Positions 27,781 to 41,916 of a stretch of DNA of 64,000 bases are shown piece after piece. The DNA is taken from positions 1 to 64,000 of the forward strand of contig NZ_JIAN01000008.1 of assembly GCF_000688475.1 (NCBI RefSeq). Direction: 5' to 3'. The notes beneath the pieces are model-generated. The model worked only from the letters and a program-made list of their open reading frames with translations. It made no database searches and was not told the DNA's origin. Numbering within the stretch: position 1 is the stretch's first letter; each line of letters begins with the position of its first letter. The position numbers and the translations under genes were made by a program. This DNA comes from Cellulomonas sp. URHE0023 (GTDB taxonomy: Bacteria > Actinomycetota > Actinomycetes > Actinomycetales > Cellulomonadaceae).

Positions 27781-27853
27781 GCGCCTGTAGCTCAGGGGAT
27801 AGAGCACCGCTCTCCTAAAGCGGGTGTCGGCAGTTCGAATCTGCCCAGGCGCA
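27781..27853 (+). tRNA. tRNA-Arg(CCT)
   Basis: All four arms pair: acceptor GCGCCTG with CAGGCGC, D arm GCTC/GAGC, anticodon stem CCGCT/AGCGG around the loop CTCCTAA (anticodon CCT, reading AGG), and T arm GGCAG/CTGCC around TTCGAAT. CCA is not encoded. The 3' part from 27812 is repeated exactly at 39666, so the gene is the integration site of the element to its right and has its 3' end restored by it. Confidence 0.97.
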
Positions 27854-27855
27854 CA
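27812..27855 (+). other. attL core: 44 bp attachment repeat inside tRNA-Arg
   Basis: Bases 27812-27855 run from the anticodon loop to just past the tRNA 3' end and are identical to 39666-39709. The flanking bases differ on both sides (T versus A before, A versus G after), which defines the repeat at exactly 44 bp. Confidence 0.95.
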
Positions 27856-28880: not shown

Positions 28881-30005
28881 TCAGCCGACCGGGGGGTCGG
28901 AGGCATCGGCACCTCCTTGCGGGTCCGGAAACGTCGGCATCCGTTCCATTGCCACCCATGGCGCCTCCGAGAAGAGGTGACCGTAGAGATCCATCGTCAT
29001 CGTCGCGGTGGCGTGGCCGAGGATCATCTGGACCGCCTTCACATCGGCGCCGGCAGCGATGAGCAGCGAGGCGGCGGTGTGACGGAGGTCGTGGATCGTC
29101 GTGCCGGCCAGACCGACCGACTGGGTCGCCTCCGTCCAGCGCGACCGGACCCGGAAGTTGGTGTTGGTCCAGATCGCTCCCGTCGGGCTCGGGAACAGGT
29201 ACGAGCCGGACGGGGCGCTCTCGATCCGATCGCGGACGTAGGGCTCGAGCGTGGGCGGGACCGGCACGGTGCGGGTCTGGTGCGTCTTCGTCGGCCCGAA
29301 GATGGCGCCGCTGGTCCTCTTCGACTGCGGGGCTGCGCGATGGACCCGCACCCCGAGGCCGTGTGGCGTCTGGACGACGTCGTCGACGCGCAGGGCGCAC
29401 ATTTCGGAGAACCGGCAGCCGGCCAGGCCGAGGAAGAGCACGACCGGCCGACAGTTCGGCGGCATGGCGTCGGCGAGCTTGCCCAGCTGCTCCGCGCGCA
29501 GCCAGTGCGGCTCGCGCTTCGTTGTGCCCTTGGGCAGCGGGATCGACCGGGCGACGTTGACGGAGATCCGTCGGTCGCGCACGGCGTAGTCGAGCACCAG
29601 CCGGATGACGGATAGGACGCGCCGCCGGGTGGCCGTCGCCAGCCCGCGGACCGTCATCGCCGTGAGCACACGCTCGACGTCCGTCGCGGAGATGACGGCG
29701 ATCGGGAAGCGTCCGAGCAGGGGGATGACGTAGGAGTCGAGCAGGAACCGCGTCGTCTCCTGGCTCCGGACCGCGAGGTGCTGCCTCGAGCCCTGCCACT
29801 CCTCGGCGAGCGACTCGAACGAGACCCGGCCGCGAGTCGGGTCGATCCAGGTGCCGCTCTGGAGCTTGACCAGCTGGTCGGCCTCCCAGCGCCTGGCGTC
29901 GGTCTTGCGCTGGAACGACTTCTCGGCGATGACCCGGTGCTCGAAGAAGACCTTCGCGCGCCAGGTCACCGTTCCCGAGGGGAGCGTCCGCCGGGTGACG
30001 GACAT
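28881..30005 (-). CDS. int: Tyrosine-type site-specific integrase
   Basis: The 374-residue recombinase has an N-terminal AP2-like arm-binding part (1-55), a core-binding SAM-like domain (about 60-150) and a catalytic domain (about 165-345). All active residues are visible: R198 in AGCRFSEM, K240, H305 and R308 in IHDLRHTAAS, H331 in LGHATATM, and the nucleophile Y341 in DLYGH. It should join attP to the 3' half of tRNA-Arg. Its ATG overlaps the stop of the excisionase-like gene by one base. It is separated from attL by two small genes. Confidence 0.96.
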   Translation of the reverse strand: MSVTRRTLPSGTVTWRAKVFFEHRVIAEKSFQRKTDARRWEADQLVKLQSGTWIDPTRGRVSFESLAEEWQGSRQHLAVRSQETTRFLLDSYVIPLLGRFPIAVISATDVERVLTAMTVRGLATATRRRVLSVIRLVLDYAVRDRRISVNVARSIPLPKGTTKREPHWLRAEQLGKLADAMPPNCRPVVLFLGLAGCRFSEMCALRVDDVVQTPHGLGVRVHRAAPQSKRTSGAIFGPTKTHQTRTVPVPPTLEPYVRDRIESAPSGSYLFPSPTGAIWTNTNFRVRSRWTEATQSVGLAGTTIHDLRHTAASLLIAAGADVKAVQMILGHATATMTMDLYGHLFSEAPWVAMERMPTFPDPQGGADASDPPVG

Positions 30006-30223
30006 CAGCGTCGGCGCGGCTGCGCGGGCTCCCGATCGACCCACGAGGCCGGGATGAGGATGACGGTGCCGAGCCGCCGGCAGGGGATCTGCTCGGTCTC
30101 GGCCAGGTGGTAGAGCGTCCGTACCGGCACCCCGAGGACGGCGGCCGCGTCCTTGACGCGGTAGTACTGCCGACGGGCGGTGATCGCGGGTGCGGTCGTC
30201 TCGGACTGCGTCGTTGTCGTCAT
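30005..30223 (-). CDS. xis: Excisionase-like MerR/helix-turn-helix protein
   Basis: The 72-residue protein has one winged helix: YYRVKDAAAVLGVPVRTLYH (residues about 21-40), then LAETEQIPCRRLGTVILIPASWVD. This is the excisionase-type DNA-binding domain usual in front of actinobacterial integrases. It probably bends DNA at the element ends to drive excision, perhaps at the TGGTCAGCA pairs. The ATG at 30223 has AAGGAG about 7 bases upstream. Translational coupling to the integrase is shown by the one-base overlap. Confidence 0.82.
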   Translation of the reverse strand: MTTTTQSETTAPAITARRQYYRVKDAAAVLGVPVRTLYHLAETEQIPCRRLGTVILIPASWVDREPAQPRRR

Positions 30224-30258
30224 GGTCGGTCTCCTTGCGTGGGTTGACGGACTTGCGG

Positions 30259-33147
30259 TCACCACCGCTCCAGCACAGGTCCATCGGGACTCGGGCTGGT
30301 CGGGGGCGTCAACGGGCTGCGCGTGATCTGTGGACGCAGCGGCGGGATGACGGGCTGTGGACGGGTGATGGGCAACGGCGGTTCTGGGCTCTCCGGGTGA
30401 TGGGCCGCCCAGGTCTCGGTGGCCGACGTTTCGCCGTGCGTCGTGGCGAGGACGCGGTCGAGCAGCTCTCGAGGCCCGTCGAGTTCGCCGCTCGGAAGGC
30501 ACTCTGGGTCGGGTCGGTCCGTGGCGACGTAGAGCCGGTTGAGGTGTCGGCCGCGGGTGACGGCGACGTAGAGGTCCTCGCGACCCATGCCAGCGGTGAT
30601 GACCGTGTGGGTCTCGTCGACGGTCATACCTTGGCTTCGGGCGGTGGTGGTGGCGTAGCCGAGCTCAACGCTCTCGGCGACGTACGCCGAAGGCAGGCGC
30701 AGCGACTCGGCGGCTGCGTCGCCGGCGGCCCGGACTCGCACGCCGCCGTCGGGCAGGACGGCGGTGATCTGCCAGAGGTCGCCGTTGCGGACGAACCCGC
30801 CGCTGGTGCGCAGCCGCCTGTTGTTGCGACGGGTCACGATGCGATCCCCGACGCCGCCGGTCAGTCCGTCGCTCAGTGTGATGCCGGTGGTGCGAACGTC
30901 GCCGGTGCGGACGCGTTCGGCGCGGGTGCGGGCGTTGAGCTCGTTGACGGTGCGCCGGTCCGCGGCCGCGAGGAGGACGACTCGGCCGTTCGCCTCGGCG
31001 TCTTGAGCTGCGGTGAGGGCGTCGTCGAGCATGTCGTCGTGGGTGCCGTGGCTGATCCGGCCGTGCCGGATGTAGGCGTCCAGGGCGGCCGGGTCGCCGT
31101 GGCGCAGCTCGAGGGTGGCGCGCGCTTCCCAGGGCTGGCTGAACCGCCACAGGGTGCGCAGCTCGGCGGTGGGTCCGCGGCGGGCGAGCATCCCGAAACC
31201 ACCGCCGGCGTCGACGGCTCCGCGTTGCAGGTGGTCCCCGACCAACAGCACCTTCGCCTCCGCGGCGCTGGCTTGGTCGATCAGGGCGGCAAGGGTCCGG
31301 GTGTCGGCCATCGAGGCCTCGTCCACGATGACTAGGTCCCCGCGTCGGAACCTCCACTGCTCTTGGTCGACGGCCAGCGCGTTGCGGCGCTCGTTCGCGG
31401 CAACGCGATCCGAGTACGTCACCGTCGGGCCGTCGACTACGGCCGTGCGTGCGGCGTACCGCAACGCCCGCTGCAACGCCGCGTCGCCGACGGACTCGAA
31501 CATCCACTTGGCGGTGGTCTCGCACCGCGCACCGAGAGCGTCCGAGAGGGTCGCGGCCGCGCTGGCCGACGGGGCCAGGCCGATGACCGTTCCGCGGGTC
31601 CGCCGCCATTCGTCGGCCAGGGCAGCCAACGTCGTGGTCTTTCCGGTGCCAGCCGGCCCGACGAGGACGGCGAGCTGCCGCGGTGAGAGCAGAACGGCCT
31701 TGGCGGCCTCGCGCTGGTCGACGGACAGGTGTGCCATGCGCTGGTCCGCGAGTCGGCCGGCCAGCTGATGGATTCCGAGCGGCACGGTGGCTTCTGCGGC
31801 ATCGAGCAGGGTGCGCTCGGCCCGCAGGAGCTCGAGCGAAGTGAATGTCTCCTCCCCGACGCGACGGCGGGCCGGTTCGGTGTCGTCGTCGAGCCGCACG
31901 CACGCCTTGCCGGCCTCGGTGACGATCGTGTTGGTCAGCCGCACCCGGTCTTCTGGCGATGCCATCCGAAACACCAGGGACGAGCGCAGGGCGGCGGCGC
32001 CGAGGTTCCAGGTCGACCACACCGATCGGCGGGTCGAGACGTCCTCGAGGACCTGGGCGACGATCGCGGCGCGAACCTCCGGCCCGACATCGCCCGCCCG
32101 CAGCGGACGGCTGTATCGGCCTGCCAAGGCGCGGGCGGCCAGATCGACGGGTTCGACCCCGGTCAGGGCGCGGGCACGGTTCGCCCAGTCGGCCAGCAGC
32201 TCCTGCAGCGCGCGGACGACCTTCGGCGGCCGAGTCTCGCGAGTCAGATGCTGGCGCGCCCTCGTCGTCTCCACGCGCGAAGGTGCCCGTCCTCGCTGCT
32301 CAGCGAACTCTTCGGCCCACCGCTGCTCGGCGCAATGGATCTGCTCCGACCGTCCGGAGAACTCGGCCAGCAGGTCCTCACCGACGCCGTCGACCTCGAA
32401 GGCGGGATTGCGACGCTCCCCGCGGGCACGCAACGACCATGTCGCGCCCAGCCGCCGTGACACCTCGTCGGCAAGCAACGCGTCGTACAGCTCAGAAACA
32501 GTCACGACCGCGCCATGCAACGTCCGGCCGTCCACGGACCGCCACGCACCGTCGGGCCCCTGGACCTTGTTCGCGACGACGACATGCGTGTGCAGGTTAG
32601 GGTCGCCGGCGCGGGAGTCCCAGTGATCGAACGCGGCCGCGACCATGCCGCGCGTCCGGACCTGCCGGCAGCCAGCCGCACCGACCCTCGTCCGGATCAC
32701 CGAGTGCTCGACGAACTTCAGGGCCGAGGTCAAGGCGGCGCGGTGCGCGTCGTAGAGAGCGGTCCGCGTCCGGTCGTCAGCCAGCCCCCACAGGACCGAG
32801 TCCGACTTCGGCGCCGTGAAGGTCAGGTCATACCCGGCGACGGTGTGCCGGCCCTCGCCGGGCACGATCTGCTTGTAGGGCGTACCCAACGGCTCGAGGG
32901 TGACAGGGTTGCGCCCGTCGCGGAAGACCGCAGTCATCGCGGCCTCGGACACGGCCGCGCCCGACCTAAGCCGCCCGTCGCCGAGGGCGTCCAGCCCGCC
33001 GCCGATCCACCGTCCCGACGGGTTGCCCGTCTGCTCGTAGTACGCGGTGAGCGAGTCGTCGGCGGACAACCCCGCGTCGCCGGCCGCGACGTGCCGCGTC
33101 AGGTACGCGTACCCGTCGCCAACGGTCAGCTTGTGCATCGACAGCAC
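30259..33147 (-). CDS. MobF-family relaxase-helicase (TrwC/TraA type)
   Basis: This 962-residue protein nicks DNA at an origin of transfer and unwinds it. The N-terminal relaxase domain has paired catalytic tyrosines Y36/Y37 and the three-His metal site H175, H186, H188 (in DPNLHTHVV). The C-terminal half is a RecD-like helicase with Walker A GPAGTGKTTT, Walker B VIVDEASMAD, and the late GYATTTARSQGMTVD and VAVTRGR motifs. The Pro-rich tail looks disordered. The GTG at 33147 is chosen because AGGAGG lies 7 bases upstream. No partner mating genes are present. Confidence 0.94.
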   Translation of the reverse strand: MLSMHKLTVGDGYAYLTRHVAAGDAGLSADDSLTAYYEQTGNPSGRWIGGGLDALGDGRLRSGAAVSEAAMTAVFRDGRNPVTLEPLGTPYKQIVPGEGRHTVAGYDLTFTAPKSDSVLWGLADDRTRTALYDAHRAALTSALKFVEHSVIRTRVGAAGCRQVRTRGMVAAAFDHWDSRAGDPNLHTHVVVANKVQGPDGAWRSVDGRTLHGAVVTVSELYDALLADEVSRRLGATWSLRARGERRNPAFEVDGVGEDLLAEFSGRSEQIHCAEQRWAEEFAEQRGRAPSRVETTRARQHLTRETRPPKVVRALQELLADWANRARALTGVEPVDLAARALAGRYSRPLRAGDVGPEVRAAIVAQVLEDVSTRRSVWSTWNLGAAALRSSLVFRMASPEDRVRLTNTIVTEAGKACVRLDDDTEPARRRVGEETFTSLELLRAERTLLDAAEATVPLGIHQLAGRLADQRMAHLSVDQREAAKAVLLSPRQLAVLVGPAGTGKTTTLAALADEWRRTRGTVIGLAPSASAAATLSDALGARCETTAKWMFESVGDAALQRALRYAARTAVVDGPTVTYSDRVAANERRNALAVDQEQWRFRRGDLVIVDEASMADTRTLAALIDQASAAEAKVLLVGDHLQRGAVDAGGGFGMLARRGPTAELRTLWRFSQPWEARATLELRHGDPAALDAYIRHGRISHGTHDDMLDDALTAAQDAEANGRVVLLAAADRRTVNELNARTRAERVRTGDVRTTGITLSDGLTGGVGDRIVTRRNNRRLRTSGGFVRNGDLWQITAVLPDGGVRVRAAGDAAAESLRLPSAYVAESVELGYATTTARSQGMTVDETHTVITAGMGREDLYVAVTRGRHLNRLYVATDRPDPECLPSGELDGPRELLDRVLATTHGETSATETWAAHHPESPEPPLPITRPQPVIPPLRPQITRSPLTPPTSPSPDGPVLERW

Positions 33148-33317
33148 GCCAGCACCTCCTGAGGAGCAACTCGGGCGAGTGCTCCTACAGATAGGTGCGC
33201 CGAAATGTGTGTAAGACGCGACGTAGATTTCGAGAGAGCGCGCGGGGTGCGAGGAGCGCCAGTACTGCACGGTTGGGGAGGGAGCTCGGCTTCCCGTCGG
33301 GGACTACCGTCGCGATC

Positions 33318-34327: not shown

Positions 34328-34607
34328 CTCTATGAGTCTGGGTCGACCTGAGCCTGGGTCGGCGCACTCCGTTCGATCGTCCTGGATGAGCGCTCCTCGT
34401 CGCCCAACCCGACCCGATCGACTGGGTGGCGCCCTGACGATCGATCACGTGGCCGACTCTTCTTGCATCACCGGATCTCGATGACGTGACTGGCGCCGGC
34501 CACCGCCAGTGGGCCTACCCCGCGACGCCCCCAGCTGCCCTGGGCCCCGCCGGAGCTAAGCCAGCGCCCCTGTGAAGGTGATGGTGGCTCTGGTACAAAG
34601 GGGCCTC

Positions 34608-35984
34608 ATGACCGAAGACGGGGAGGATAGCCCGACTCTCGCTGGCATCACGCTGACGGGCTGGCGGCAGTTCAGCACTATCGATCTCGACCTCTCGAGT
34701 CGGCTGACCGTGCTTACGGGCGCGAACGGCACGGGTAAGAGCACGGTGCTCGGCATTCTTGCCAAACACTTCAGTTGGAAAACGGTCTTTGCGGCCGTGC
34801 CTCGACGGGATCGAGCCGGAAGAGAACACTTCTTCAGTGACTGGCGCGCCGAACTGCCCGAGGCATCGCGCGATGGCGGAACATTTTCTGACGACTACGA
34901 GCTCGACATTCTGCACCCGCGCGAGCAACTGCCCACCGTAGCTCAGCCGAGCCGGCCCAGCGACGAACTGACGAGCATCGGTACCGTCAGGTACTCGGAT
35001 GGCTCCGATCTCACCATCGGCATTCCCAAACTCGAGTCCGCTACCTATGACGTGGTGCCTGCGTCGACGCGCCAGTGGCCGACCCTCGCGGGACTCTACC
35101 TCTCTGCGTTTCGAACACCCACGGTCTATACGCAACTCAAGACGATACCCGCGCAGTTTGACGCAACGGAACGTATGCTCGACACATACGTGGAGCAGTA
35201 CCGGACTCGCTACTACAACGAGTACCTGCCACCGGACCAGAGTGCGTTCAAGACAATGAAGGAGTCCCTGGTTGCCGCGGCCGTCTACGGTCCGGGAAAC
35301 TCGTCCGTCCAGCCAAATGCTGCGGCACGGGATATCTGGGACGGTTATCAGGCGGCGCTCCATAGGTTGCTTCCCCCTGAACTCGCTTTCTCGCATCTCG
35401 TGGTTCGCGCGCCGGACGTCATTGTTCGGACGACGATGGGCGATGAATACCCTATCGACAGCGTTTCGGGCGGAGTTGGCGCAGTCATGGAGCTCACATG
35501 GCAGATCCTCCTGAGATCCTGGGGGAGCCCTAGGTTCACGGTGCTGATCGATGAGCCGGAGAACCACCTCCACCCCAGTCTGCAGAGGTCGCTGCTTCAG
35601 AACCTCCTTGATGCGTTCCCCGGCGCAAACTTTGTGGTGGCGAGTCACAGCCCGTTCATAGTGAGCTCTGTAGCGGAGAGCAACGTGTACGCGCTGAAGT
35701 TCAACGATGAGGGCCTCGTCCAGGCTGTCCTGCTTGATCGCTCCGACAAGGCCGGCTCCGCAGACGACGTTCTCCGCGACGTCCTGGGCCTGGAGAGCAC
35801 AAGGCCGGAGTGGGTCCTAAGCCAGTATGAAGCTATCCTCGCCGGCCATCTAGAGAATGCTCCGGATTCTGCGAATCTGATGTCTCTTCGGCGAGAATTG
35901 GAGGAAGCCGGACTCAGCTCGGAGCTCCCTCGTGCCGTTACGCGGCTAACAGACACCTACATCGAAGAGCGCGGGCGCGATTGA
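34608..35984 (+). CDS. ptuA: Septu-like defence ATPase (PtuA-type)
   Basis: The 458-residue protein is an ABC/SMC-like AAA ATPase: Walker A GANGTGKST (38-46), signature-like SVSGGVGA (285-292), Walker B with DEPE (315-318) followed by NHLHP, and the H-loop ASHSPF (345-350). The HNH gene follows with a one-base stop/start overlap (TGATG), which is the PtuA-PtuB order of Septu. In Septu the ATPase multimer binds the nuclease and controls it. AAAGGGG precedes the ATG. Codon use is less GC-biased than in chromosomal genes, so it was acquired. An overcoming-lysogenization-like nuclease domain is not seen. Confidence 0.83.
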   Translation: MTEDGEDSPTLAGITLTGWRQFSTIDLDLSSRLTVLTGANGTGKSTVLGILAKHFSWKTVFAAVPRRDRAGREHFFSDWRAELPEASRDGGTFSDDYELDILHPREQLPTVAQPSRPSDELTSIGTVRYSDGSDLTIGIPKLESATYDVVPASTRQWPTLAGLYLSAFRTPTVYTQLKTIPAQFDATERMLDTYVEQYRTRYYNEYLPPDQSAFKTMKESLVAAAVYGPGNSSVQPNAAARDIWDGYQAALHRLLPPELAFSHLVVRAPDVIVRTTMGDEYPIDSVSGGVGAVMELTWQILLRSWGSPRFTVLIDEPENHLHPSLQRSLLQNLLDAFPGANFVVASHSPFIVSSVAESNVYALKFNDEGLVQAVLLDRSDKAGSADDVLRDVLGLESTRPEWVLSQYEAILAGHLENAPDSANLMSLRRELEEAGLSSELPRAVTRLTDTYIEERGRD

Positions 35985-36706
35985 TGCGCAGTCTATCTAA
36001 GGCGGACGTCCCCGCTACTATTCGCGATAAGAAGGCTGAGCTCACGAGCAGCTACATCGCTTCGGAAGGGCGCACTGTTCCGTGGAAGGCACGAGACATC
36101 GTCGCCTCGCTGGCCGTGGAGACGAGTGACAAGTGCGCATACTGTGAGAGTCGCGTTGGGGCTGTTGCGTGGACGCATGTGGAGCACATCAAGCCAAAGT
36201 CGCTCTTTCCGGAACTTGTGGTCGACTGGGCCAACCTTACGCTGGCTTGCCCGCGGTGCAACCAGTACAAAGGCGACTACCACTCCGACGAGCATCCGCT
36301 AATGAACCCGTATACGGATTCGCCGGAGGCCCATCTCCTCTACTTCTTCGGAATGGTCCGGGCTCGCCCTGGCGACCAGCTCGCGTCCGATACAATTCGC
36401 ATTCTTCGTTTGCATAGGCTAGAGCTCCAAGACCGGAGAGTTGCCGCGGTGGAGCGTGTGGACTCCCTTGTCCACGACTGGGCGCGTGCGGACGGACCGC
36501 TAAAGGAGGCGATCGAGGAACTCATCGCTGAGCATTTGGAGGATGGTGCGGAGTACGCCGCTTCGATTCGAGCCTATCTAGATTCCGTCGGATTCGAGCC
36601 GAGCGCCCGCGTGGCGCCGCCCGCGTTCACGTCGGCTGCTTCTGGGCAGGTGGCGGGGGATGCGCCAGCTCATCACGGGCCGCAGCCCGCGACGGGGGAG
36701 CGCTGA
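35984..36706 (+). CDS. ptuB: Septu-like HNH endonuclease (PtuB-type)
   Basis: The 240-residue protein carries an HNH/zinc module: C51xxC54, then VEHIKPKS (E67, H68), WANLTLACPRC with the Asn at 84 and C89xxC92, and NQYKGD. This arrangement is that of PtuB and of the HNH effector of Ec78-type retrons. No reverse transcriptase or msr/msd is nearby, so a Septu-type role is favoured. It would cut DNA (or tRNA, as in the retron version) when the ATPase is triggered by phage. The last 40 residues are Ala/Pro-rich and probably flexible. Confidence 0.83.
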   Translation: MRSLSKADVPATIRDKKAELTSSYIASEGRTVPWKARDIVASLAVETSDKCAYCESRVGAVAWTHVEHIKPKSLFPELVVDWANLTLACPRCNQYKGDYHSDEHPLMNPYTDSPEAHLLYFFGMVRARPGDQLASDTIRILRLHRLELQDRRVAAVERVDSLVHDWARADGPLKEAIEELIAEHLEDGAEYAASIRAYLDSVGFEPSARVAPPAFTSAASGQVAGDAPAHHGPQPATGER

Positions 36707-36935
36707 GGGACACGCTGCTAGCGCTCTTCCCCCGCAGCTTCCAGGTTCGATCAACGCCGCGAGACCGGGCGGGCACAGTGCCGTACGGCGCTTCACGCCG
36801 TTGCCGTATGGCACATCACGCCGCAATCGCATCGGGCTCGGGCCCCTACAGGCGAGCTTGTCCTCGCATCGAGGCCCGGACAGCAGTCGAGCGCGGCTCA
36901 CCCGAACGGGTACGGGGTCGTCGTGGTCCCCTCGC

Positions 36936-36941
36936 TAAGAT
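36936..36941 (+). promoter_or_regulatory. -10 element of the ATPase-kinase gene
   Basis: TAAGAT ends 6 bases before the GTG at 36948, and no Shine-Dalgarno is present. The gene therefore seems to have its own leaderless promoter, separate from the Septu-like pair. Confidence 0.5.
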
Positions 36942-36947
36942 CAACTC

Positions 36948-39371
36948 GTGACGATTGACGCCCGCGATCTCCGCCGTTTCGTCCTTCAGGATGATCCCGA
37001 GCATGGAAAAGGGCGGCGCGGCGAGGTCGTCGAAGCGATAAGTCGCTCCTCATTCAGCATCGAGTACGTCCACGTCCCATTCCCGTATGCCACGCCTGCG
37101 GAATTGCGGATCGGTGACACTTTCGGCCTCTTCCTGAAACCGAACCAGTCGGCCAAGCGACTTTTCGGTCTCGATCGAGAGGTTCTCCTCTGGTGCTCTA
37201 CATACGGGCGGTTCCAGGCGAAAGACATCGACGTGCTATTCAAGGTGATGGAGGAAAACGGGACTCGCCTGAGTCGACAATTTGCCATCCTGGTCACTCG
37301 CTATGAGCGGGACGAGAGGAATGTACTCGAGTCAGAGGCGGATCTGGACTCTAGTCTCGTGCACATCTCACTTCAGGAGCTGCGGGCGAACGGCCTTGAC
37401 GCGCTGCTAACGCGCCACCTTTATTCGAGAGACCTCTTCGATGTTTCGGGTGCCGCAGTCCTGGCCGCCGACTTCTTTGGGCGCCGGGATCTCATTGACC
37501 GGCTCGTAAGCGAAGTGGAGGTCGGAACGAATCAGATTGGTGTCTTCGGACTTCGAAAGGTCGGAAAGACCAGCCTTCTCAATCGTTTGGGCGAACGACT
37601 GCGCAACTCCGGAAAGGTTGCCGTCGCCCGGCTGGACCTGCAGTGGTCCACCTCGATCAACGGACGGCCCGAATACACCCTCTGGGCGATGGGTGAAAGC
37701 ATATACGCTTCCCATCGTGCAATACGGTCGATGGGTGACTTTCGATTGTTTGGAAAGTTTGACACGTTCTCGGACATTCCCAGTCCGGACTCGACCTGGG
37801 AATGGTTCGCCCACGACGTGATGGTGATCCTTAGCAAGTCGAGAAGGCGCGTTTGCATCTTGATCGACGAGATCGAACGCATGTTTGAGGCGGCAGAAGA
37901 ACGCGGATTTATTCGCTTCTGGCGCCTACTCCGGGGCCTCGACCAACAGCAACCCGGACGTCTACGGTTTGTTCTAGGCGGTACGAGTCCCCAGTGTGCC
38001 GAGCTCGGGTTGATCAACAACGAAGACAACCCCCTGTTCAACTATCTTCAACTGGAGTATCTAGGGCCCCTACAGAACGAGGACACAGGCAGACTCCTGC
38101 GAACGCTGGGTTCGTCTATGGGTCTAGACTTTGACAACTCAAGTTTGATTTGGGCGCGAAGCCAATGCGGTGGCCACCCGGCGCTCCTCAGGGCCCTTGG
38201 ATCGACAGTCCACGACGCGTACGCCGGACGCGTTGCGCCCGTGCTATTGAACGATGCATCGCTAGCTAGACTTGAGCCGACGCTTGCACGGCGAACCGCT
38301 CCGATTCTTGATCAAATGGTCGCAGCGCTCGAAGATCAGTACCGAACCGAGTTCGATCTCCTTGAGTTGGTCGCCTCTGGCCAACTGTTTCAATATCGTG
38401 AATACGTTGAGATATTTCCGGGTGAGTCGGAGAGGCTGCGCCATTATGGCTTGATCGGCGCAGGCGATACGCCGGTGATAGCGATTCAACAGCTTCATGC
38501 TCACCTAATTCGACGGAAAGAATTGCAGTCAATTCGGATAGCGCCGAGCCGACTCCTATCCTCGGGCTCAGAACTCGGCCCGTGGCGGGTAGAATCATGC
38601 CTCGCGTCCGGGGGGTATGCCGACGTGTACAAGGTCAGGGCGGGCGACTCCGTCGCTGCGGCGAAAGTTTTGCGTGGCGGTCACTTGTCGGCTCTCCAGC
38701 GAGAGGTTGACGCTCTTTCGGCGCTCTCCCATTCCGGCATTGTGCGATTCATGGATTCGTTGCGAGCATCGGACGGCGAACCCTGCCTGATAATGGAGTT
38801 CCTAGAAGGAAAGGATGCCTCCAAGTACTGCATGCCTGCCTCCGCGCCGTCGACTCGTGACTGGTTCCGGTGGATAGCGGAGGTGCTGTCGGCGCTCGAG
38901 TCCATGCACCCTCGAATCGACTACGCTCGTAAGCTCGAGTCGCGGGAGTCGATGAGTAGCACAGAGTTCGAAGAGTGGGGTCGGGCGCGCCACGGCCAGA
39001 TTCATCGAGACATTAAGCCCGAGAACATCATGATCGTGCCGGGGCGCGGTCCCGTGCTCATCGACTTCAACATTGCGGTTCTTGCTGGCGCCCCCGTCTT
39101 GACTTCGTCGTCAACGGCGGGCTACTTGCCGTCGCTGCCGGTGGAGTGGTCGCCCGCATGCGATCTGTACGCCCTCGGAGTGACGTCGCTTGAACTGGCG
39201 GCGGGCACCCGACTCTCGACCTGCTCGTTAGACGAGTTGGTCGAGATCGCTAGGGCGCGGCATGGCGACGCGGTCGGCGATGCAGCCGGTCTCCTTCTCG
39301 CCTCGCCCGGAAGTGGTGCCGGCGCCGCGGCGATTCGTAGAGAGTTCCTGCGGCTACAGCCTGGTCGCTAG
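36948..39371 (+). CDS. STAND/AAA-type ATPase fused to a Ser/Thr protein kinase, candidate defence protein
   Basis: The 807-residue cytoplasmic protein has three parts. Residues 1-170 are an alpha/beta region I cannot assign (VLLWCSTYGRFQ at 79-90). Residues 175-525 are a P-loop NTPase of the STAND/AAA type: FGRRDLIDRL entry, Walker A GLRKVGKTS (201-209), Walker B CILIDEIE (303-310), then a winged-helix-like stretch. Residues 543-750 are a eukaryotic-type kinase: Gly loop ASGGYADVYKV, Lys 573, HRDIKPEN (686-693), metal Asp in DFN (706-708), DLYALGV. Catalytic residues are intact. G+C is low and codons are atypical. It lies in the defence cargo between the Septu-like pair and attR, so an anti-phage role is inferred. 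Confidence 0.85.
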   Translation: MTIDARDLRRFVLQDDPEHGKGRRGEVVEAISRSSFSIEYVHVPFPYATPAELRIGDTFGLFLKPNQSAKRLFGLDREVLLWCSTYGRFQAKDIDVLFKVMEENGTRLSRQFAILVTRYERDERNVLESEADLDSSLVHISLQELRANGLDALLTRHLYSRDLFDVSGAAVLAADFFGRRDLIDRLVSEVEVGTNQIGVFGLRKVGKTSLLNRLGERLRNSGKVAVARLDLQWSTSINGRPEYTLWAMGESIYASHRAIRSMGDFRLFGKFDTFSDIPSPDSTWEWFAHDVMVILSKSRRRVCILIDEIERMFEAAEERGFIRFWRLLRGLDQQQPGRLRFVLGGTSPQCAELGLINNEDNPLFNYLQLEYLGPLQNEDTGRLLRTLGSSMGLDFDNSSLIWARSQCGGHPALLRALGSTVHDAYAGRVAPVLLNDASLARLEPTLARRTAPILDQMVAALEDQYRTEFDLLELVASGQLFQYREYVEIFPGESERLRHYGLIGAGDTPVIAIQQLHAHLIRRKELQSIRIAPSRLLSSGSELGPWRVESCLASGGYADVYKVRAGDSVAAAKVLRGGHLSALQREVDALSALSHSGIVRFMDSLRASDGEPCLIMEFLEGKDASKYCMPASAPSTRDWFRWIAEVLSALESMHPRIDYARKLESRESMSSTEFEEWGRARHGQIHRDIKPENIMIVPGRGPVLIDFNIAVLAGAPVLTSSSTAGYLPSLPVEWSPACDLYALGVTSLELAAGTRLSTCSLDELVEIARARHGDAVGDAAGLLLASPGSGAGAAAIRREFLRLQPGR

Positions 39372-39563
39372 CCGGCGTCGGCCATCGGAGCTCCGGCGCC
39401 ACTGCGATCTCGAAGCGAACCAGCTAGAGGGCCGCGTCGGTCGGGCAACAGTGCGGGGCACTCCGACTGAGTCGGCAGATTCACCTAGGCCCATGTGTGG
39501 GGCGCGATCATCGGGCTTGTCGGGCGGCGACGACCACGTTCGGAGGAATCCGCCGAACGAGCG

Positions 39564-39583
39564 TGGTCAGCAAATGGTCAGCA
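39564..39583 (+). repeat. Right pair of TGGTCAGCA repeats (candidate integrase arm sites)
   Basis: TGGTCAGCA occurs at 39564-39572 and 39575-39583, with the same 11-base period and orientation as at the left end (27926-27945). The pair ends 82 bases before attR. Confidence 0.7.
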
Positions 39584-39665
39584 CGCGTATTGGATTCCAT
39601 GCACTCTGGGAATTACTCGCGTGTGTTTCCGCAGGCCAGCGCGGTGCAGACCCGTCCAAGCCGAA

Positions 39666-39709
39666 CTCCTAAAGCGGGTGTCGGCAGTTCGAATCTGCCC
39701 AGGCGCACA
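39666..39709 (+). other. attR core: 44 bp attachment repeat
   Basis: This is an exact copy of 27812-27855 (tRNA-Arg anticodon loop to 3' end). No acceptor 5' strand or D arm precedes it, so it is not a functional tRNA. Confidence 0.95.
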
Positions 39710-39868
39710 GTGTGTTGGTCTGAGCCAAGCCTGCTCTTCGCCGTGGCATTTGCCCTTTTTAGGCGTCGCGCATATGAGGTAGACGCCGGTTCGGGCTGGC
39801 TCTCCTGATATCCCAGGCCGTTCATTCTCGCGTCGGCCCCGCAGGCCCTCGGCCGGTACGGTGAGCCC

Positions 39869-40711
39869 GTGGCCACGTACTTTGACTCGCGCCAGGATGC
39901 TGAGGCTGGCGTCCCCGCCCAGGCCGGCCTGAGCCCAGCCGCCGCCGTGGTCGCTGCGACGATCAGTGCGGTCTTTGGGCGCGACGTCGCAGCGACTCTG
40001 AGCCCGGTCAATCAGCCACTCACGACGGTTCCCCCTCGCACGGCGATGTACGCCGTCATCGGCGGGTTGCGCTGCTCGCTGTATGCCGACTCGAAGGCCG
40101 TCAACGTGCTGACACCCCGTTCGAACGCTGACAGGCATCTACGGGCTCACGCTCGACACGGCGAGGCCATCGTTCCCAGCCCCCAGGGGGACCCTTTTTA
40201 TGCAGGCGTCCGCTACGCATATGCCGAGGCGGCCGACCGTGCGCCGGAGCTCGCCGACGCGGAGGTCTTAGCGGACGAGGCTGCTGGTCGTGTGCCTCGT
40301 CGGGGGCTCTTGACCTCGGCCGCGGAACGAAAGGCCATCGAAGGGCGAGCCGTACGTGTCACCCAGGAGCATTTGGAAGCGCTCGGTTATCACGTCGAAG
40401 ACGTCGGTGCGTACGAATCCTTCGACCTCGATGTTCGGCGCGGCGAGGAGCGTCTGTTTGTCGAGGTGAAGGGGACGACGACGTCGGGTGACGCGGTCGT
40501 TCTCACGAAGAACGAGGTCGACCTGCATCGCATGCACTACCCCAACAACGCACTCGCGGTCGTCCGCCGGATTGAACTGGACCGTTCCACGGCGCCGCCG
40601 GTCGCCAACGGTGGCGAACTGGTGCTCATCCAGCCTTGGCAGATTGAGGACGAGCGTCTGACGGCCTTGAGCTACCAGTACGTGACCGGAATCAGTGGAT
40701 CGCAGCCATAG
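39869..40711 (+). CDS. DUF3883-domain protein next to the element
   Basis: The 280-residue protein ends in a DUF3883 domain (about 165-270) with FDLDVRRGEERLFVEVKGTT and a following LTKNEVDLHRM. The E-x-K of VEVKGT fits a PD-(D/E)XK nuclease-like core, and DUF3883 is frequent in restriction and defence proteins. The N-terminal 150 residues are not recognised. TACGGT ends 6 bases before the GTG, so it is probably leaderless. It lies outside attR, either as chromosome or as a relic of an earlier insertion. Substrate and role are unknown. Confidence 0.75.
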   Translation: MATYFDSRQDAEAGVPAQAGLSPAAAVVAATISAVFGRDVAATLSPVNQPLTTVPPRTAMYAVIGGLRCSLYADSKAVNVLTPRSNADRHLRAHARHGEAIVPSPQGDPFYAGVRYAYAEAADRAPELADAEVLADEAAGRVPRRGLLTSAAERKAIEGRAVRVTQEHLEALGYHVEDVGAYESFDLDVRRGEERLFVEVKGTTTSGDAVVLTKNEVDLHRMHYPNNALAVVRRIELDRSTAPPVANGGELVLIQPWQIEDERLTALSYQYVTGISGSQP

Positions 40712-40864
40712 ATCGGGCGGCATAGCGGCAGCGCCGCGGGCACTCGACCTGGGGCCACCTCAGCGCGATCGCCTACGACGACGCCCCCGCGCAGCACTGG
40801 CGTTTCTGGTGCGCCGCTCGTTGCTGGCCGGTCGCGCGGCGTGCTCTTCGCTTGTAGAGCCTGA

Positions 40865-41916
40865 TCAGAACCGTGGGTCGCAGGTCCCCTGGCCGAGCAG
40901 GGCCAGACCGGTCAGGTCTCCCGCCTGGAACGTGTTCACGCCGGGCATCGCGGAAGGGCTCATGATCTGGGTGGGGTCGGCGACGTGGTCCAGACCGACC
41001 AGGTGCGCGAGCTCGTGCATGACGATCGTGACGCCCTGCCCGTCGAAAGCCTGGGCGTCCATGACCTGCTCCACGTCGAGCTCGATAACGCCCGTGACGT
41101 TGACCAGTAGCTGCCCGTCTACGGACACCGGTGTCGGTCCGCCAACGCCGACGACGTTGCCGGCAAGCCGCATGTTCTGCGCCTCGGTGTCCCACTCGAT
41201 CAGGACCGGGGCCCACCGGTCGCCGTACAGGGCTGGCTGGGACAGCGGCCGGATGGTGCGCAGCGGAACGCTCTCATTGGTGGCGCCGTCATTGACGAAT
41301 ACCAGCCCGCTCGCTGCTGACACTGCCGAGGCCGCGGCCTCGATCAGGTCGTTGCCGCCAGGTGGTGGCCGGCGGTCCGTGTCACGTAGTGAATCGGGCG
41401 GCACGGGTCCCACGAGACCGGGGTGATGCCGTCGGCTTGGACGTGCAGGAACTTGTACGAGCTCGACATCGAAGCGACGAGCGGCGGGTGCCCGAGCGGA
41501 ACGGTGCCCGCCTCGAATCCGGGCGTGGGGAACCCCATCGCTCTGAGGACGTTCTCGGGGATGGTTGTGCCCACCGGCGTCGGACCTGGCGCGGGGGGCG
41601 CAGGAACGCTGATGCCACCCAGGTCGACGCGCCTATCGAAAACCGGGCTGTGCGTGGTGAACCAAGCCGCTGCACAGAGCACACCCACGACGAACAGGAC
41701 GAGCGTGTTCTGGTACCCGACGGACTGCCGGATGCCACCAGCCGGACGGCGTGCCCCACTCGGTGTCTGCGCGGGCGCCGGAGGCCCAGACACCGTGGGG
41801 TCCTGCCGCCTGAGTGCGGGGACGATCTCTGTGCCAGTGCGGGCTTCGTCCGCGACGCGCTCGGGAACAGGACCAGACGGTGAACGGGGCGCGCCGTCGT
41901 GCGGAATCTCGTTCAC
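40865..41916 (-). pseudogene. Matrixin-like zinc metalloprotease, frameshifted
   Basis: Two overlapping frames make one protein. The N-terminal frame (GTG at 41916, stop near 41344) gives a Pro-rich leader, one membrane helix (TLVLFVVGVLCAAAWF) and the lead-in to a protease, ending WDPCRPIHYVTRTAG. The C-terminal frame resumes with PPPGGNDLIEAA and carries the zinc site HELAHLVGLDH and a Met-turn-like IMSPSAM, ending at 40865. The shift lies within about 41345-41380 and needs one base added or two removed. It is a pseudogene, a sequencing error or, least likely, programmed frameshifting. The intact product would be an external protease of about 350 residues. Confidence 0.8.

Follow-up and report, generated by a model that had tools for sequence, protein, structure and literature searches.

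The window analysed here is a stretch of 64,000 nucleotides from Cellulomonas sp. URHE0023, and it contains an 11.85-kb element that spans the tRNA-Arg(CCT) gene to a second copy of its 3' part (Table 1). The last gene of the element codes for an 807-aa protein. An earlier note had placed this gene inside a mobile element, beside a Septu-like pair. The mobile element was confirmed by a 49-bp direct repeat (96%), the first copy of which overlaps the tRNA gene, and the neighbouring pair was identified as Septu by the PADLOC matches of PtuA and PtuB. The GC content of the element drops from 70-71% in the integrase and relaxase genes to 59% in the 807-aa gene, which lies 241 bp downstream of PtuB on the same strand and with a similar base composition. 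The foreign base composition that had been assigned to the gene was also found, with a GC content of 59.0% against 70.4% for the window and a GC3 of 0.67 against 0.86-0.87 for the relaxase and integrase. When the right flank (39710-41400) was compared with 18 near genomes, no match was obtained before its base 1156, while from there 6 of the 18 matched. Since the DNA directly to the right of attR has no match in these 18 genomes, an empty integration site was not demonstrable. A NOV_C-domain protein is encoded at 39869-40711, just beyond attR and within this unmatched DNA.

Table 1. Features of the element and domains of the 807-aa protein, with positions in the window.
Feature	Position	Strand	Evidence
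tRNA-Arg(CCT), integration site; the attL repeat (27807-27855) covers its 3' part	27781..27854	+	ARAGORN; 49-bp direct repeat
Tyrosine integrase (open frame; true start may be internal)	28881..30284	-	Phage_integrase, E 3.1e-19
MobF (TrwC) relaxase-helicase	30259..33270	-	TrwC, E 1.1e-87; NCBIfam MobF above cut-off
PtuA of the Septu pair	34572..35984	+	PADLOC PDLC00290, E 3.9e-123, residues 25-461
PtuB, HNH nuclease of the Septu pair	35981..36706	+	PADLOC PDLC00337, E 1.4e-53; HNH
TAAGAT, -10-like, 6 nt 5' of the GTG; its TAA is the in-frame upstream stop	36936..36941	+	By eye
807-aa restriction-endonuclease-like / STAND-like ATPase / kinase protein	36948..39371	+	ORF, Pfam, alignment
Residues 1-173, fold probably restriction-endonuclease-like, catalytic residues absent	36948..37466	+	Predicted model, structure comparison, alignment
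Residues 174-440, STAND-like ATPase: FFGR 176-179, Walker A 201-209, Walker B 303-310, GGHP 408-411	37467..38267	+	Alignment, profile match
Residues 441-535, helical region after the ATPase, probably a winged helix	38268..38552	+	Alignment
Residues 536-807, Hanks-type kinase, DFN replacing DFG	38553..39368	+	Pfam, alignment, structure comparison
attR, second 49-bp repeat copy (96%), right edge of the element	39661..39709	+	Direct-repeat search

The reading frame of the 807-aa gene was confirmed with its GTG start. It is bounded upstream by an in-frame TAA at 36936, so that no ATG, GTG, or TTG start lies farther 5'. The motif positions quoted for the protein were all correct (Walker A GLRKVGKTS 201-209, Walker B CILIDEIE 303-310, K573, HRD 686-688, N693, and D706). 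The claim that the gene has its own promoter was not borne out by a sigma-70 scan of 36400-39900, which found none; only the TAAGAT upstream of the start was seen by eye, and its spacing of 6 nt from the GTG would be in keeping with a leaderless message. An orphan gene or an artefact was ruled out by a 42% identical homologue that aligns across nearly the whole length. A paralogue in the same genome was ruled out as well, the 6 other matches there covering kinase parts only. Among the families listed (for PADLOC, the best 25 of 30), no Pfam, NCBIfam, or PADLOC model spans the whole protein or its N-terminal domain, and the long matches are those to the kinase.

The C-terminal domain had been read as a kinase with intact catalytic residues, and this is supported by a Pfam Pkinase match above the cut-off (E 4.7e-17). 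Only three kinase-type proteins were found, including that of the window, the two others being 39-43% identical to it, and K573, E586, D688, N693, and D706 are invariant in all three. The kinase model resembles PknB (5u94) with a Z of 25.5 and an rmsd of 2.3 over 230 aligned residues. The glycine of the DFG motif is absent, and all three proteins carry DFN; active kinases without this glycine exist. The best partial matches of the protein to defence models were MAD6 and PD-T4-6, both restricted to the kinase part. The MAD6 (MADS) model of NCBIfam gave 97.1 bits against a cut-off of 460, which is not a full-length match, and PD-T4-6 (PADLOC), a model without a stated cut-off, matched the kinase part alone.

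STAND NTPases share an hhGR motif before Walker A, the Walker A itself, a Walker B with an acidic pair, and then GxP. All 15 alignment rows of the protein family described below keep these four motifs, in the form of F[FY]GR or LFGR, a Walker A with FGLR..GKTS, a Walker B with DE, and GGHP, supporting the earlier reading of the central region as a STAND-like ATPase. A profile of this region gave a single match among solved structures (2fna, E 6.7e-6), and Pfam AAA_22, nSTAND1, and ATPase_2 all matched below their cut-offs. Residues 467-535 of the full-length model have a pLDDT below 50 and were unusable, because the input alignment had placed the helical region of relatives on kinase rows. A profile search of the PDB with the helical C-terminal alignment returned nothing significant.

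The N-terminal 170 residues or so had been considered novel and unplaceable. They proved to be common to a broad family, and they most resemble a degenerate restriction-endonuclease-like fold, probably one without catalytic residues. In the predicted model of residues 1-173, the elements run in the order helix, strand, strand, helix, strand, helix, strand, which fits the alpha-beta-beta-beta-alpha-beta arrangement of the PD-(D/E)xK fold. Structure comparison returned RPB5 (Z 6.8), EcoT38I (6.7), FokI (6.7), and EndoMS (6.6), and also Can1/Can2, Shedu, and Cap4; the best Z of 6.8 is below the trust level of the tool, for which a Z under 8 is no proof. Carboxylases account for 6 of the 50 listed matches, and the other 44 chains are presumably of the RPB5 or restriction-endonuclease-like class, with many repeated entries for a single protein (RPB5). 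Foldseek with the same model gave no match at E <= 0.001 in the PDB, where EcoT38I came first at 9.4e-3, and none at this threshold in a viral library, where several RPB5 rows appeared; a PDB profile search with the N-terminal alignment gave nothing significant. An active PD-(D/E)xK nuclease was rejected, since the catalytic D...(D/E)xK set is not conserved in the 15-row alignment: 13 of its 15 rows retain E78, none has a Lys at +2, and no conserved Asp is present in the preceding strand.

As judged from sequence, residues 1-535 define a mobile STAND-like family, represented by 26 tree rows including the window protein. Azospirillum L096 and its twin record (56% cover) and 15 Klebsiella records like L092 (H3-H14 and H16-H18) were left out of these rows, as were L090 and L098-L100, which are weak or fragmentary. 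A protein search with residues 1-535 found 22 plasmid records, 16 of them from Klebsiella, and no phage record. A viral scan with the single sequence gave no relative, profile searches gave 14 viral contigs, and a repeat with the 15-row alignment gave the same 14 loci. Among cellular genomes the family is sporadic. At E <= 1e-15, the family profile detected 5 of 394 genomes of the class, own genome included, and among the 148 nearest genomes the own genome only. Profile searching also detected 4 of 294 genomes of the family of G684, two of which were already known. A profile search of the phylum (396 genomes, E <= 1e-10) returned the own genome and three partial, more distant ATPase matches, and a single-sequence search of the order (198 genomes) returned, besides the own genome, two weaker matches, of which one is an AlbA_2 relative. 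Searching the order of G740 added no further family members. In a scan with the whole protein, the best 80 of 414 relatives all matched via the kinase, and a tblastn search of these 80 with residues 1-535 yielded no relative. A scan with the kinase-type alignment yielded 6 loci, 2 on contigs already known and 4 with kinase-only matches.

The C-termini of the 26 tree rows comprise 3 kinases, 2 SLFN_AlbA_2 domains above the Pfam cut-off, 15 HEPN-like domains with an R..H motif, and 6 ends without an effector domain. The 15 HEPN-like rows have a helical domain whose motif follows the RxDAHA pattern, or one close to this, in 13 and the RNxxxH pattern in 2, as assigned by eye. We take this domain to be HEPN-like from the R..H motifs alone; Pfam found no HEPN family in 6 scanned R..H proteins (P0004-P0006, L109, L111, and L113), and PADLOC reported the weak candidate PDC-M34B in 3 of 5 scanned HEPN-like proteins (L092, L101, and L110). 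The 6 effector-less rows each have a second gene directly downstream, and one of these partners carries a pP_pnuc_1 nuclease domain above the cut-off. In the ATPase tree, in which row L093 sits on a very long branch, a single branch separates each of three sets from all other rows, namely the 3 kinase rows (support 100/99), the 2 AlbA_2 rows (100/100), and the 15 HEPN-like rows (96/89). The rows lacking an effector do not come together in this way and require 2 changes, and the total of 3 changes is the minimum possible. Additions on the N-terminal side of relatives include CSD in L109 (above cut-off) and L108 (below), IF2_N in L122 and L126, and TPR in L108 and L114. This distribution of predicted domains identifies the C-terminus as the slot where effectors are swapped in the family, with the putative kinase occupying the slot that AlbA_2 or HEPN-like domains hold in relatives. 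The conserved core would then act as the switch, the N-terminal side as the sensor, and the C-terminus as the output.

Genes in the fetched loci were called by our own ORF and GC3 rules with mechanical start codons, and the context survey covered 7 actinobacterial loci, the one in the window included, without a matched control. A defence or relaxase gene was nearby in 5 of the 7, and none was recognised in L120 and L127. The homologues in these loci do not sit mainly in core metabolic surroundings, the pattern that the earlier note had set against a defence role. In L121, the kinase homologue comes last in a run of genes (L121:3244-11097), directly behind HsdM, HsdS, and HsdR, and its mechanical start overlaps the HsdR stop by 4 bases. 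It lacks about the first 110 residues, which means that the protein is decayed or that this part is dispensable. In L123 (AlbA_2), genes for a C5 methylase, GmrSD_N, and Z1 begin about 1.9 kb downstream. In L122 and L126 (IF2_N), a partner of 369-370 aa is followed by a MobF relaxase, and L122 has a weak AbiEii-like match further along. These partners (L122:10963-12072 and L126:10790-11902) have no Pfam match and overlap the IF2_N-type member by 4 bases. L120 (kinase type) has ordinary chromosomal genes around it, and the 7 tested ORFs, which include a Ni-superoxide dismutase, a dehydrogenase, and a sulfotransferase, contained no defence gene; the GC3 of the family gene there is 0.66, compared with 0.9 or higher for 13 of the 18 further ORFs called in this locus. 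At L127 (AlbA_2), the 3 tested ORFs gave a weak methylase match only.

The family was also observed in viral surroundings. The contigs L105 and L108 have outer genes in common on both sides, as seen by eye from the protein starts, with different family members between them, one of the HEPN-like type and the other of the CSD-TPR type with a partner gene. The member on viral contig L107 starts 14 bp after an integrase gene, which we assume to be P4-like. The psu-integrase interval of P4-like satellites is described as an anti-phage hotspot in the available excerpts of Rousset et al. (PMC9122126).

Further elements were found at the same tRNA gene. The left flank plus the tRNA was searched in 19 genomes (own and 18 near), and three of them besides the own genome (G1179, G1180, and G1185) have a further 43-44-bp att copy at a distance of 4.3 to 15 kb from the tRNA. 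Two of these loci, L134 and L135, code for an integrase 71% and 69% identical to that of the window, respectively, and for a MobF that is 65% identical in both. Between MobF and the far att copy, the place occupied in the window by Septu and the kinase gene, L134 carries a GmrSD_N / HEC-06 gene together with a PIN_8 gene, and L135 carries in the same position a gene for a 1084-aa nSTAND5 protein (L135:1344-4598). L135 additionally has a DUF6791-ThiF gene and an HTH-IrrE gene (PD-Lambda-2_B match), both on the side of the integrase that faces the tRNA. The third att-bearing locus, L136, had no integrase or MobF match, and its 2 tested ORFs were without hits. The differing genes in L134 and L135 indicate that the slot holds interchangeable cargo, partly of the defence type in both siblings.

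Defence had been proposed as the role of the 807-aa gene, and it is supported as the likeliest one by the Septu neighbour, the position of L121 at the end of a type I restriction operon, and the defence-type cargo of the siblings. With a probability of roughly 60%, the gene codes for a one-gene defence protein, carried as cargo of a mobilisable element, whose ATPase-gated kinase effector acts against phages or competing mobile elements, probably via growth arrest. This explanation builds on the domain order, the family, the clade, and the mobile context, all of which were observed. The ordinary chromosomal surroundings of L120, the missing N-terminal residues of L121, the low Z of the N-terminal fold match, the DFN in place of DFG, and the small number of kinase-type proteins count against it. 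The odds are about even for a wider proposal, in which the protein belongs to an unnamed mobile immune-switch family that combines a STAND-like ATPase with a sensor resembling a dead nuclease and with a C-terminal effector that can be interchanged, and in which the output of this clade is ATPase-gated phosphorylation by a kinase in the same chain. The likeliest order of action is from sensor to ATPase to kinase. The degenerate restriction-endonuclease-like domain would help to recognise nucleic acid or protein derived from an invader, upon which the STAND-like ATPase would exchange nucleotide and probably oligomerise. Oligomerisation may bring the C-terminal kinases together and allow them to autophosphorylate, and the kinases could then phosphorylate a cellular or viral target, leading to a growth arrest that stops phage growth.

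Other explanations were weighed against this one. The protein might serve the element itself, with the kinase regulating or excluding (entry exclusion, stability, or transfer timing) and any defence being incidental, as its place on a MobF element next to attR and the occurrence of two relatives near MobF relaxases would allow. We consider this unlikely, since in the two siblings, whose integrase and relaxase are orthologous, this place is taken by other genes, including GmrSD_N and nSTAND5, and since relatives such as L121 occur without such an element in view. It is improbable that the protein forms one system with the Septu pair, its kinase or ATPase controlling PtuAB. The shared strand, the short distance to PtuB, and the similar base composition are in favour of such a partnership; however, no Septu gene was found among the ORFs tested near the kinase homologues (7 at L120 and 6 at L121), and Septu is a complete pair without a protein of this type.

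A signalling kinase without a defence role, like the actinobacterial kinase-ATPase regulators of the PknK type, is very improbable. The metabolic genes around L120 fit this reading, but the sporadic occurrence of the family, the foreign base composition, and the mobile settings do not. PknK-type regulators also join a kinase and a STAND-type ATPase in one chain, a likeness by description only; unlike in the 807-aa protein, their kinase is N-terminal, and they are chromosomal. The least probable of the explanations considered is that the N-terminal domain is an effector nuclease and the kinase its regulator. Although the nucleases among the structure matches (EcoT38I, FokI, Can1/Can2, Shedu, and Cap4) speak for it, the loss of the catalytic set, the joining of the same N-terminal region to differing C-terminal domains, and the absence of much of this region from L121 argue against it. 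The gating of the N-terminal region by the kinase, which had been suggested earlier, is likewise disfavoured, because effector exchange in this family takes place at the C-terminus.

The defence reading can be compared with known systems. The 807-aa protein is similar to the STAND NTPases of the AVAST/Avs type, as far as they are described in the available parts of PMC9122126 and PMC12931631, in its central STAND-like ATPase switch, effector swapping, and prophage or satellite settings. It differs from the STAND proteins outlined in the same parts of PMC9122126, which have an N-terminal effector and C-terminal repeats, by its C-terminal effector slot and restriction-endonuclease-like N-terminus. 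The AVAST/Avs layout was not found, as the kinase is C-terminal, no Pfam repeat family was listed, and no Avs was among the 25 of 30 PADLOC families listed. A kinase as output is shared with Stk2 and KKP (PMC11341870), the HipA-related DS-6 (PMC13092281), PD-T4-6, and MAD6. According to the excerpts of these sources, the kinase activity of KKP blocks phage growth and is triggered by a phage replication protein, Stk2 was the sole other kinase-based defence system known to that study (PMC11341870), and a catalytic residue of the HipA-related kinase DS-6A is needed for defence (PMC13092281). In contrast to Stk2, KKP, and DS-6 as described there, the 807-aa protein has a STAND-like ATPase in the same chain, and unlike proteins fitting the PD-T4-6 and MAD6 models, it matches them in the kinase part only. 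Protein kinases are also among the effectors of NTPase-centred conflict systems (ternary and STAND-centred), including actinobacterial ones, in the parts of PMC7159879 and PMC8195603 available. The vWA-associated systems covered there (PMC7159879) are multi-gene with mostly catalytically disrupted kinases, whereas here a single protein keeps the catalytic residues.

From its sequence, the protein looks like an immune protein of the STAND-like kind whose C-terminal effector slot is filled by a kinase, and its novelty would be a kinase where relatives carry other effectors. No STAND-kinase defence protein of this domain order was found among the matches listed from the open-licence literature. 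If the explanation holds, signalling by a bacterial STAND receptor can run through a kinase of the same chain; plant and animal immune pathways signal through separate kinases. The interchangeable C-terminal slot offers a direct way to ask whether one ATPase core drives kinase, AlbA_2, and HEPN-like effectors, and the related tRNA-Arg elements provide a natural set of swapped cargoes for finding further systems. The tRNA-Arg(CCT) gene itself is an integration hotspot in the genus, att copies being present in 3 of the 18 near genomes.
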